NCBI GenBank assembly: GCA_021292105.1
Contig: CM037874.1
Coordinates: 30,954,800 to 31,018,799 of the forward strand
Direction of reading: 5' to 3'
Origin: Anadara kagoshimensis
Lineage: Eukaryota; Mollusca; Bivalvia; Arcoida; Arcidae
Length of the DNA: 64,000 nucleotides
Every line of letters starts with the position of its first letter. Positions within the stretch are counted from its first letter, which is position 1. The notes beneath the pieces are model-generated. The model did no database searches, had not been told where the DNA came from, and was given only the letters and a program-made list of their open reading frames with translations. Position numbers and translations under genes: made by a program. This document shows, one piece after another, positions 12,701-16,433 of this stretch.

Positions 12701-14658
12701 TCTGAATGTGGTTAAGTTGGTCAGTTTATGTCTGGGTATTACAGTTTCACACTGGAACTGACCAGGGTAAGTGACATCTGAGGGGTCTAAAGCACTGGTT
12801 TAGGGATCACAGCACCTCAGCACTAAGGTTTGAATCCCACTTGAGCTCTAGTGTGAGAAAGTTGGTCAGTTTATGTCTGGGTATTACAGTTTCACACTGG
12901 AACTGACCGGGGTAATTGACATCTGAGGGGTCTAAAGCACTGGTTTAGGGATCACAGCACCTCATCACTAAGGTTTGAATCCCACTTGAGCTCTAGTGTG
13001 AGACAGTTTTTAAGTTTGCTTGCCAGTGGTCATTTTGAGAATCTTGACACTGGTGTAAAACATTACTCCACTCTACACCAGATCTGACTGCCTAAATGTA
13101 AGCAATTAATCTTGACAATGGTCTAGGATTACCGTCTGTCTCTCTCTCTCTCCCTCCCAGGGTCTCTTTAGTCGAGTAGTGTAAAGCACTGGTTTATGGA
13201 TGGCAGTGTCTCTCACCACCTTAATTAGATTCCAACTCTGAACAGATCCTAGTTAGAGAAATTCATTTGCTGGAGTTAACTGGTGCATAATTGATATAAC
13301 ACCATTACTTCACTTCTCCTTCTTTCTTACTTGCTGTCTTGGTATATGAAGTGCTTTCCCATTCCTTATTGTATAGCAACTTTATAGAGATATTAAGTAA
13401 CATACATAAACTTAATCAGTATTTGAATGACATCATAATGAATGATTCTTTTTCTGTCAATTTTTCGTCCTCATGACTTCTCATGTTACTCTTACAAATA
13501 GTAATTATAATAAAATAAACCATCCACTAGTAAGTTACTAAGATAGGCAAACAACACTGACCTGTTGGCTTGACCTTTAAATTAAATATATATTATCAAC
13601 CAGTACATTTATGTGTACTGTAGATTACTTTTTTGTTGCGAGAGATTTATTGACATGTAATTTCGCGAGAACTCAGTCGTGAATTCATATAGCATGCAAA
13701 TATTACAAGAACCGTGAAAAAAAAAAAGCCATATTGAAAAATACATGCCAGCAATAGACTATGACTGTGAGTCAAGTTGAGTAATGGTGTTAAACGTCCC
13801 AGTCAAGAATATTTTACTTATATCGAGACATCGCCAGGTATAGGTGAAGGTGCAGAAATTTTGCCTGTGCATTGCGCTGATGGCATTATACAGCAGGGTT
13901 CTTTAGCGTGCCAAGCCTACCGTGACATGGGACTATGACTGTGAAAGTAACATATAACAAGACAAAATGACTTGGGGAAAGGAAGATAATTGCCTATCAA
14001 TCACAAATTTTAATATTTATAAGGAGTGGGTCACCAATTTACATATTTGCGAAATGACGCTTAGTGGTCGGCATGAAATGTGATACTAGCGAATTCAAAG
14101 TAATCTACAGTAGTGAACACAGGTGGTTTTTTTTCCTAATGGGAAACGTGCCTGTTAATGTTTTATCATCATGTTTCTAAATCAATCAACAAAGTGAATA
14201 CAAGTTATCTCTTCATTTAAGGTCAAAGTCATCGACATGTATATAAATATTTCTAATGAAAGATCAAGCCAACAGGTGAATGTTGTTTGCCTATACATAT
14301 TTCCACTGGTCTTTGTAATAAAGCATGCTATTATTATTTTCATTTCTTTATTTTGATTTCCCTTTAGCTTGTCACTTTTATTTTAAGCATGTTTGCATGA
14401 CATTTTTATTTTTTGTATATTTAATATAGACCTTATCAGGAAGCTATTGTATCACTGGTATCACTCATGCTTGATACGGGACTTCCATGCTTTAGAGGAC
14501 AGACCATCAAAGAACTGAGAAATCGATTCCAAAATACATCCACGGAAAAAGATGCGGCAATTTACATGAAAAAAGTGATAGAACGTTGTTATCTAAGCTG
14601 GAGAGCCAAATCTTACGACATGATTCAGTTTTATCAGAATCAGATTCCATATGGCTAA
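740..14658 (+). CDS. PI4KA: Phosphatidylinositol 4-kinase alpha, 3' part (13 exons, last exon form A)
   Basis: This lipid kinase phosphorylates phosphatidylinositol at the 4-position to supply plasma-membrane PI4P. Exons joined at GT/AG sites in consistent phase: 740-921, 1440-1572, 2012-2137, 2758-2811, 3862-3982, 4647-4847, 6251-6323, 7376-7538, 8341-8445, 8991-9116, 9926-10046, 10665-10824, 14430-14658. They give 597 residues and a stop; the 5' part lies left of the window. The first ~250 residues match the helical PIK region. The kinase domain follows: ATP-site lysine in [11 protein letters not shown] (K344 of this fragment), catalytic loop KDRHNGN (D451), DFG at 469-471 and the activation-loop segment [20 protein letters not shown]. 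The C-terminus ends QNQIPYG, close to animal PI4KA. Many blocks are near-identical to vertebrate PI4KA as I recall it, so the assignment is firm. The last intron is long (3.6 kb). Confidence 0.96.
1180..1352. mobile_element. Short dispersed element (family GGAAACCTAG)
   Basis: Diverged copy of the 52757-52936 element: shared blocks TTTTAGCAAATTTG, GTATTTTCACAAATTTTAG and a terminal GTGGAAACCTAG. Lies in PI4KA intron 1. Confidence 0.6.
2298..2442 (-). mobile_element. SINE family 2 copy (minus, degraded)
   Basis: Read on the minus strand it has a tRNA-like head (ACAAGTGGTCTCAAG), then the body GTGAGAAAATTTGTCAC and a tail resembling the copies at 17078 and 34226. In PI4KA intron 3. Confidence 0.55.
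2869..3082. mobile_element. TIR element of 214 bases flanked by TA
   Basis: Termini TAGTCCGTCAGCGATAATTT and, inverted, TAGTTCGTCAGCGATATTGT pair over about 38 bases. No coding capacity; a MITE in PI4KA intron 4. The remainder of this intron (3083-3861) shows nothing else I recognise. Confidence 0.7.
4050..4320 (+). mobile_element. SINE family 1 (tRNA-derived) copy
   Basis: Remnant of a tRNA-like head (TGTAGAGCACTCGCTTGG, then GGTCGTGGGTTGGATCACC), the body GACCCAAAACTTGAAAGTAG, and the tail TTCTTGACTGGGACGTTAAA followed by CACCATTACTCAACTCA. In PI4KA intron 5. The 4320-4646 remainder is unremarkable. Confidence 0.75.
5417..5579. repeat. Long inverted repeat (hairpin), arms about 80 bases
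   Basis: The left arm starts TAAGAAATGGCATTCTG and the right arm ends CAGAAATGTCATTTCTTA. The inner GTATTTCAAGGGGTAATGCA is matched exactly by its inverse. The centre lies near GGGTGAAGCCC. In PI4KA intron 6, otherwise without recognised content from 4848 to 5990. Confidence 0.85.
6002..6210 (+). mobile_element. SINE family 2 copy
   Basis: Body features GTGTGAATCCCACTAGACTA, GTGGTTTTCTCTGG and CCACCATGCCAGAACTGATC, then the tail AATCTTAAATCGGG and CATTCCACTC, as in other family 2 copies. Confidence 0.6.
6424..6620. mobile_element. Foldback TIR element (family TIR-1)
   Basis: Same internal sequence as the window-start copy (ATGACGTCACTAAGACTAG, GTGACGCTGCTTTGGTACAG) with degraded termini. 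In PI4KA intron 7. Confidence 0.65.
6931..7277 (+). mobile_element. SINE family 1 copy
   Basis: Head CAGTAGCTCAATTAGTAGTG, a B-box-like TTTTCGAACCCC, body AAGACTTGAAAATAGGCAGT and tail TATTCTTGACTGGGACAAAA. Close to the copy at 20216; both end in an ATTCAATCAATC-type tail rather than CTCAACTC, which suggests a subfamily. Confidence 0.78.
7539..8340. other. PI4KA intron 8, no recognised element
   Basis: Near 7588 there is a short match (TTCCATTCCTGGTAGC) to the GGAAACCTAG-family terminus. Otherwise this is AT-rich intron; the open frame at 7802-8143 has no recognisable protein character. Confidence 0.5.
9592..9754. mobile_element. TA-flanked TIR element (family CAGTC), copy 1
   Basis: Ends AGTCCAACATGCCTTAAAGG and the inverse of CCTTTATAGACAGGTTTGAC. 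Internally it repeats TATAAAGGCCA units. Copies at 20722, 40849 and 43243 carry clearer CAGTC termini flanked by TA, as in Tc1/mariner-type MITEs. Confidence 0.75.
9895..9918. repeat. (TA)n microsatellite next to a PI4KA acceptor
   Basis: Alternating TA run ending 8 bases before the exon-11 acceptor AACAG at 9921-9925; it may form part of the polypyrimidine region. Confidence 0.8.
10200..10382. mobile_element. Short dispersed element (family GGAAACCTAG)
   Basis: Contains GCCAAAATTGCCATTGGATA, GAGAATTCTTTCAAAACG and terminal GTGGAAACATAG, matching 52757-52936. Confidence 0.65.
10856..11395. repeat. Tandem repeat, about 145-base unit, nearly 4 copies
   Basis: Units begin with CACACCTTTCGGTAAAGTTA near 10856, 11002, 11147 and 11294. 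Each has an A-tract, a CTCTGACACTTTTTGCAGGG-like block and an AATAAAGAATAAAA tail. The array begins ~30 bases after the PI4KA exon-12 donor. Short frames in it are by-products of the repeat. Confidence 0.9.
11396..12480. other. AT-rich part of PI4KA intron 12
   Basis: Very AT-rich with short CA/GA runs near 11610. The 69-codon frame at 12037-12246 has AT-driven composition. Nothing recognisable. Confidence 0.5.
12486..12602. repeat. Short tandem repeat, ~21-base unit
   Basis: About five units of TCTCTCTATTAGAAAATGTC with small variations. Confidence 0.85.
12612..13082 (+). mobile_element. SINE family 2 copy with an internal 145-base duplication
   Basis: tRNA-like head (CCTTAGTGACTGAGTGTCAT and AGGTTCAAACCC), then the segment from 12716 repeated from 12861 (GTTGGTCAGTTTATGTCTGG to GAGCTCTAGTGTGAG), then the usual tail with CTTGACACTGG and CATTACTCCACTC. 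Confidence 0.7.
13158..13320 (+). mobile_element. SINE family 2 copy (truncated)
   Basis: Head-like GTAGTGTAAAGCACTGGTTT, then AACACCATTACTTCACTTC at the end. Follows a CT-rich tract at 13136-13156. Confidence 0.55.
13616..14112. mobile_element. TIR element (TACTGTA family) nested in 13541-14304
   Basis: Perfect 16-base terminal inverted repeat TACTGTAGATTACTTT. Internal GCGAGA/TTCGCG motifs resemble the copies at 19488 and 23375. Without its inserted SINE and the extra target copy it is about 323 bases. Confidence 0.82.
13771..13930 (-). mobile_element. SINE family 1 copy, truncated, with 14-base target duplication
   Basis: Minus-strand tail (GAGTAATGGTGTTAAACGTC at the left end). Flanked on both sides by GACTATGACTGTGA (13757-13770 and 13931-13944), a clean target-site duplication of the kind made by LINE machinery. 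The tRNA-like head is missing. Confidence 0.88.
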
Positions 14659-16207: not shown

Positions 16208-16433
16208 GCCGTACCAAGAGGAGATCGTCTCACTGGTGTCTCTAATGCTCGATACTGGATTTCCGTGCTTTCGAGGACAGACAATTAAGCAGCTGCGAGC
16301 TAGATTCCAAACTGAGGCTACAGAAAGAGAAGCAGCTACGTATATGTTAAAAGTGATTGAAAAGTGTTATCTTAGTTGGAGAGCTTGGTCATATGATGTA
16401 CTACAGTATAAACAGAATCAGATCCCATACTGA
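16208..16433 (+). CDS. PI4KA: Alternative terminal coding exon (form B) of PI4KA
   Basis: A second copy of the last PI4KA exon. It has its own acceptor (CATCTAG at 16201-16207), the same entry phase (the exon-12 AG plus G makes Arg), an open frame of 75 codons and a TGA. It aligns to form A without internal gaps; I count about 17 substitutions in 74 residues (roughly 77% identity), and form A has one extra C-terminal Gly. Core residues such as [22 protein letters not shown] and QNQIPY are kept, and many changes are conservative (R/K, E/D, M/V), as expected if the exon is under selection. An AATAAA at 16628-16633 could end the transcript. It may be an alternative last exon spliced from 10824, or a decaying duplicate; the open frame and intact acceptor favour use. 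Confidence 0.8.

Follow-up and report, generated by a model that had tools for sequence, protein, structure and literature searches.

Introduction

Alternative protein C-termini encoded by homologous neighbouring exons have been catalogued in human, where 236 events of tandem duplicated exon substitution are reported, 77 of them C-terminal and most described as ancient (PMC9741552). Human CapZ beta has homologous terminal exons with multiple poly(A) sites, and the same study separates homologous terminal exons from mutually exclusive exons (PMC3228551). Here we describe a comparable arrangement in the lipid kinase gene PI4KA of the bivalve Anadara kagoshimensis (assembly GCA_021292105.1, contig CM037874.1, abbreviated C18). 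The window, that is the whole stretch of DNA that was analysed, comprises 64,000 nucleotides (C18:30954800-31018799), and unprefixed positions refer to it. Judged from its sequence, the window very probably holds part of one PI4KA gene with a tandemly duplicated last coding exon, and its transcripts would end either at the first copy (exon A) or at the second (exon B).

PI4KA has been described as a master regulator of the lipid make-up of the plasma membrane, where it works together with TTC7 and FAM126 in a complex. The same authors consider membrane-driven changes in its kinase domain likely and leave membrane regulation to future work (PMC11661448).

Results

Two homologous last coding exons

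The two exons follow each other on the + strand:

14430 to 14658, + strand: exon A, candidate alternative last coding exon, 75 codons (PYQE...IPYG) plus TAA (splice model, PDB match)
16208 to 16433, + strand: exon B, candidate alternative last coding exon, 74 codons (PYQE...IPY) plus TGA (splice model, PDB match)

Both can be joined in the same entry phase to a common donor, CAG/GTACTT, after position 10824 (the slash marks the splice junction). The acceptor of exon A at 14430 reads ...TTTAATATAG/ACC and that of exon B at 16208 reads ...TTTCATCTAG/GCC. The open frames close at TAA (14656-14658) and TGA (16431-16433), respectively, so that a transcript including exon A would finish its frame there. 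An earlier note, made from the letters alone, had given these coordinates, acceptors, common phase and stops, and they proved exact to the base. Its reading of the pair, two PI4KA isoforms by alternative last exons, is also the one best supported here. This reading, in which both exons would be used in RNA, draws on 12 open upstream exons, the shared donor and phase, signs of purifying selection on both exons, and the solitary state of the shared exons: a search of the 64-kb window gave no further match to any of the 12 (tblastn E<=0.01; blastn E<=0.001).

The relationship between the exons is evident at the protein level (tblastn of A against B, E 6e-38). A recount confirmed 17 differing residues out of 74. 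The same note had called many of these changes conservative, which holds for 8 of the 17 (BLOSUM62 > 0) and fails for N31A, K47L and Y68K (-2 each) and for K60W (-3), which are radical. Exon A is one residue longer and ends in IPYG, while exon B shares the terminus IPY with solved PI4KA. At the DNA level the repeat spans 233 bases without a gap, and likeness is lost about 11 bases 5' of the acceptors and near the stops. In the 60-base flanks of the repeat, compared ungapped, 22 and 14 positions match on the two sides.

When searched singly against the PDB, exon A and exon B each find PI4KA (E 2e-27 and 2e-25). Pfam returned 0 families for either exon alone, a result of little meaning, as the kinase match stops at residue 544 and so takes in just some 22 residues of the exon. 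Adjacent, homologous, similar in length to within one codon and entered in the same phase, the two exons have the features of C-terminal tandem duplicated exon substitution. We also considered strict mutually exclusive exons. This class was rejected, because strict mutually exclusive exons are internal, and exons A and B bear stops and are terminal instead of forming an internal cluster.

Both exons appear old and maintained by selection

Of 222 bases compared, 63 differ between the two exons, distributed as 14 first, 10 second and 39 third codon positions. A comparison of substitution rates, named as a check in the earlier note, gave a proportion of synonymous differences (pS) of 0.81, which is saturated, and a proportion of nonsynonymous differences (pN) of 0.14 (Nei-Gojobori). 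In neutral simulations started from exon A (n=5000, equal base changes), a mean of 40 residue changes accumulated, with a minimum of 31, and 6% of the runs stayed free of stops. From the saturated pS, the low pN, these simulations and the flanks that are no longer alike, the duplication looks old and both copies look as if maintained by selection.

The distance to the solved protein is similar for the two exons, with 48/74 identical residues for exon A and 46/74 for exon B. Relative to PI4KA in the PDB, 5 sites are altered in B only, 3 in A only, and 14 differences are common to both. Neither exon stands out by this measure as a decayed partner. Expressed as a fraction of the mean distance to solved PI4KA, the distance between A and B is 0.57 (bootstrap 0.35-0.86). 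At even rates, the duplication would have taken place well after the vertebrate split yet long ago, which is a rough dating. A search for relatives of the A/B/PI4KA alignment gave 327 pattern matches in viral contigs and 46 in GTDB genome contigs, with 0 confirmed in either set, and thus led to no further animal PI4KA.

An inverted second copy of the region permits a constraint test

The same contig carries, at a distance of about 1 Mb, an inverted second copy of the region (C18 about 31.91-31.98 Mb). In the parts compared, this copy is largely colinear with the window, and it carries many insertions and deletions. The two copies mismatch at 4.4% over 48,774 aligned bases, and 49,242 of the 64,000 window bases are covered. 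The copy matches 30.937-31.019 Mb and again 31.064-31.065 Mb (a span of about 128 kb, with 31.019-31.060 Mb left out); one segment towards its outer end breaks the order, and part of the matches come from dispersed repeats. Around the axis computed from paired positions, a comparison of 30 kb found short mirror repeats only (<=216 bases), so the second copy need not extend to the axis. It may be a misplaced second haplotype (allele) or a large true inverted duplication. The constraint test, which sets two copies from one genome against each other, is valid in either case.

The order of A and B is kept in the second copy, with a spacing of 1785 bases against 1778 in the window. Stops or frameshifts in exon B of relatives had been named in the earlier note as grounds for giving up the two-isoform reading; none were present in the second copy of the same genome, the only place looked at. 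All five differences in exon B are synonymous, one of them being the stop codon itself (TGA vs TAA), an outcome with P 0.0005-0.0016, depending on the mutation model. The one difference in exon A is synonymous as well (1/1). The shared exons behave in the same way: 3/3 differences in exon 1 and 26/26 in exons 2-12 are protein-neutral (29/29 for exons 1-12), which brings the count for all coding exons to 35/35 differences without a change in the protein. In the non-coding DNA near A and B (introns and flanks), the copies diverge by 4.7-8.2%. The acceptor AGs of both exons are also kept, as is an AATAAA behind each (15386 and 16628). Both exons show signs of purifying selection, which for exon A come from the A-B comparison (n=1 in the copy comparison).

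The exons belong to the 3' part of PI4KA

From the start of the window to about 16.5 kb, the + strand holds the 3' part of the PI4KA gene. The splice model consists of 12 exons between 740 and 10824 with AG acceptors and GT donors; exons further 5' lie outside the window.

740 to 921, + strand: PI4KA exon, first in the window (splice model; second-copy comparison, 3 differences, none altering the protein)
1440 to 1572, + strand: PI4KA exon (splice model; second-copy comparison)
2012 to 2137, + strand: PI4KA exon (splice model; second-copy comparison)
2758 to 2811, + strand: PI4KA exon (splice model; second-copy comparison)
3862 to 3982, + strand: PI4KA exon (splice model; second-copy comparison)
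4647 to 4847, + strand: PI4KA exon (splice model; second-copy comparison)
6251 to 6323, + strand: PI4KA exon (splice model; second-copy comparison)
7376 to 7538, + strand: PI4KA exon, start of the Pfam kinase match (splice model; Pfam; second-copy comparison)
8341 to 8445, + strand: PI4KA exon (splice model; second-copy comparison)
8991 to 9116, + strand: PI4KA exon (splice model; second-copy comparison)
9926 to 10046, + strand: PI4KA exon with DRHNGN (splice model; second-copy comparison)
10665 to 10824, + strand: PI4KA exon with DFG, last shared exon, donor CAG/GTACTT (splice model; second-copy comparison)

Once spliced, the 12 exons leave one of three frames open, which either exon A or exon B continues, giving a fragment of 597 residues (A form) or 596 residues (B form). 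In a PDB search the spliced B form matched PI4KA best (6bq1, 9b9g, 9ot6; E 2.5e-270, aligned 2-596), and the aligned region corresponds to the helical and kinase parts. Among the best 60 of 106 matches, PI4KA scored 901 bits, PI4KB 197 and the PI3K classes <=136. Among the matches listed, the nearest solved lipid kinase is PI4KA, far ahead of PI4KB and the PI3Ks. In the A form, Pfam recognises the kinase domain PI3_PI4_kinase (PF00454, E 1.2e-50) and the PIK accessory domain (PF00613, E 2.2e-27). The motifs DRHNGN and IDFGF are intact in the spliced protein. We take DRHNGN (exon 9926 to 10046) to be the catalytic loop and the motif in exon 10665 to 10824 to be DFG.

Splice sites, poly(A) signals and competing explanations

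One candidate poly(A) signal can be named behind each exon:

15386 to 15391, + strand: candidate poly(A) signal AATAAA, exon A (kept in the second copy)
16628 to 16633, + strand: candidate poly(A) signal AATAAA, exon B (kept in the second copy)

These signals bear on how the choice between the exons would be made. If both exons are used, the choice could be made mainly by alternative cleavage and polyadenylation behind A, which would be a variant of the two-isoform explanation and not its opposite. The conservation of an AATAAA after each exon would fit this, though such hexamers are common. In addition, Pillmann et al. 2011 (PMC3228551) take differential inclusion or multiple poly(A) sites to be the most probable basis of homologous terminal exons, and cite human CapZ beta for the poly(A) route. 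The present data separate neither this route nor competition between splice sites from the other, and both acceptors score weakly. We give polyadenylation as the main switch somewhat less than an even chance.

The case for two used exons also has to be held against several observations that weigh on the other side. Acceptors were scored with a matrix built from the gene's own 12 acceptors (leave-one-out), which is small and crude. With scores of 1.5 (A) and -0.6 (B), both exons fall below all 12 constitutive acceptors, which range from 1.7 to 12.1. Their ranks among all 401 AG sites from 10825 to 18000 are 69 and 123. The best-scoring AG, at 14440 (9.3), falls within exon A, 10 bases from its start, and splicing there would disrupt the frame; the second-ranked AG, at 14498, is also within exon A. 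Weak acceptors might suit regulated exons, yet they do not themselves support use. RNA folding at the acceptor of exon A, the one acceptor that was folded, is no better than that of shuffled sequences (z -0.11). Between 14001 and 20000 there are 14 AATAAA or ATTAAA hexamers, and because they are so common in the region the two named signals add little weight. The pS and pN counts pool the branches leading to A and to B. Finally, the single synonymous difference in exon A has a P of 0.21-0.27, and since it is one difference only, the copy comparison of exon A is uninformative on its own.

In one rival reading, the protein ends with A alone, and the other exon would be a relic, an old duplicate no longer spliced. 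The likeliest relic would be B, though the roles could be exchanged. The lower acceptor score of exon B, its slightly larger number of unique residue changes (5 vs 3) and its greater distance from the donor would all agree with this. However, although A and B have reached saturation at synonymous sites, only 17/74 residues differ and neither a stop nor a frameshift has arisen; and the 5/5 synonymous differences of exon B between the copies point the same way. Moreover, neighbouring repeats that look younger by identity have already decayed:

16507 to 16607, + strand: decayed, incomplete repeat of the exon B end plus the adjoining 3' flank, each of the three + frames interrupted by stops (repeat comparison)

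This repeat is part of a segment (16374-16607) in which the exon B end, with the flank 3' of it, recurs once and imperfectly at a distance of about 130 bases; the second copy of the region has one unit more. The second copy also holds an extra, shortened and diverged PI4KA exon 7 (about C18:31.9737 Mb; 80% identity over 20 residues), of which no counterpart was found in the 64-kb window. From the decay of the partial repeat behind B and of the extra exon 7, it appears that unneeded duplicates decay in this PI4KA gene, and that A and B have not. We consider the relic explanation improbable.

Exon B might instead terminate a second, tandem PI4KA gene that has been partly lost, and lie outside the present transcript. 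Since the region belongs to a misplaced haplotype or a large inverted duplication, bigger duplications may occur here; however, the other 12 exons are without a further match in the window and exon B stands solitary and under constraint, which makes this origin very improbable. An assembly artefact, to which the inverted copy about 1 Mb off, maybe an unmerged second haplotype, could give rise, is scarcely credible when 28% of bases distinguish A from B, far in excess of the 4.4% between the copies, and when both exons keep the same order at near-equal spacing in the two copies (1778 and 1785 bases).

Repeats and genes in the neighbourhood

Further repeats surround the two exons. Just 5' of exon B there is a perfect 73-base tandem duplication (15868-16013), and over 15800-15999 the two copies of the region differ at <=1 position per 100 bases. 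A repeat of about 147 bases is present four times (10857-11415) shortly 3' of the shared donor, in the intron that leads to exon A. At 17817-17947 lies a near-perfect inverted repeat with 63-base arms that are 95% complementary around a 5-base spacer. Arrays of a unit of about 145 bases (46882-47863 and 55206-56037) match arrays elsewhere on the contig and represent a dispersed satellite.

By Pfam, the neighbouring genes are GLE1-like (24042-24515, - strand), GidA-like (41059-41298, + strand; presumably MTO1) and a B-box/NHL protein (50740-52512, - strand) in an open frame of 590 codons. Scans of the window with Rfam (gathering threshold) and for tRNAs found 0.

Discussion

A proposed model for two probable PI4KA isoforms

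We propose that the tandemly duplicated last exon gives PI4KA two alternative ends. In the A form, the shared donor would be spliced from 10824 to 14430, with cleavage perhaps near the AATAAA at 15386. In the B form, exon A would be skipped, splicing would join 10824 to 16208, and cleavage might occur near the AATAAA at 16628. The choice may be made by competition of the two acceptors coupled to 3'-end processing. The two predicted proteins would be the same through the shared part and differ in their last 74-75 residues, from PYQE onward.

By alignment, the swapped segment would close the kinase C-lobe. From the alignment and PMC3670040, it would correspond to Kα10-Kα12, which form the regulatory square. 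In Vps34 and p110beta, the C-terminal helix aids membrane binding and lipid phosphorylation and limits idle activity (PMC3670040). In Vps34 the helix is needed for catalysis and takes part in the suppression of basal activity (PMC6358306). Because the C-terminal helix of these kinases acts on membrane binding and activity, the exon swap could alter the membrane contact of PI4KA or its catalytic set-point. Compared with A, the tail of exon B has W for K at position 60 and K for Y at position 68. Together with K47L, these replacements alter charge or aromatic character and could change the contact with the membrane.

Taken further, PI4KA in many bivalves (or molluscs) may be an old two-isoform enzyme. 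One gene would then encode two kinases that differ in the regulatory square (Kα10-Kα12) and the final helix, and the alternative last exon would provide two set-points for plasma-membrane PI4P. We put this wider proposal forward tentatively, as close to an even call and falling just short of it. If the isoforms are real, they amount to a natural, clean swap of the last part of the kinase C-lobe with the rest of the enzyme identical, and thus to a ready-made experiment on the role of the C-terminal helices of PI4KA.

Comparison with known exon swaps

The term 'PI4K' is absent from the main text of PMC9741552, and a limited search of the open-licence literature found no duplicated PI4KA last exon in titles or abstract openings. 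In the solved PI4KA chains shown (6bq1, 9b9g, 9ot6) there is a single C-terminus, IPY; here there would be two.

The C-terminal events of tandem duplicated exon substitution resemble the present pair in that homologous neighbouring exons give alternative C-termini and core residues are kept (PMC9741552). In contrast to those human events, it is the end of the catalytic domain of a lipid kinase that would be swapped here, in a non-vertebrate and in transcripts that are themselves predicted. The 3'-terminal exons of the CapZ beta type are likewise coding and each have their own stop, and here each exon has a candidate poly(A) signal. CapZ beta is, however, another gene, and the separate poly(A) sites that are described there are putative here (PMC3228551).

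In amphioxus preGNAS, the final pair of exons is duplicated, the encoded proteins are 80-81% alike, one pair is longer by 3 nt, and a functional C-terminal helix is altered, all of which is like the PI4KA arrangement. There, two exons are swapped as a block in a G protein; here, a single exon would be swapped in a lipid kinase (PMC5896119). The swap of homologous C-terminal exons is therefore an established kind of arrangement, to which the PI4KA case would add one more within the literature searched, in a gene where it would be of use.

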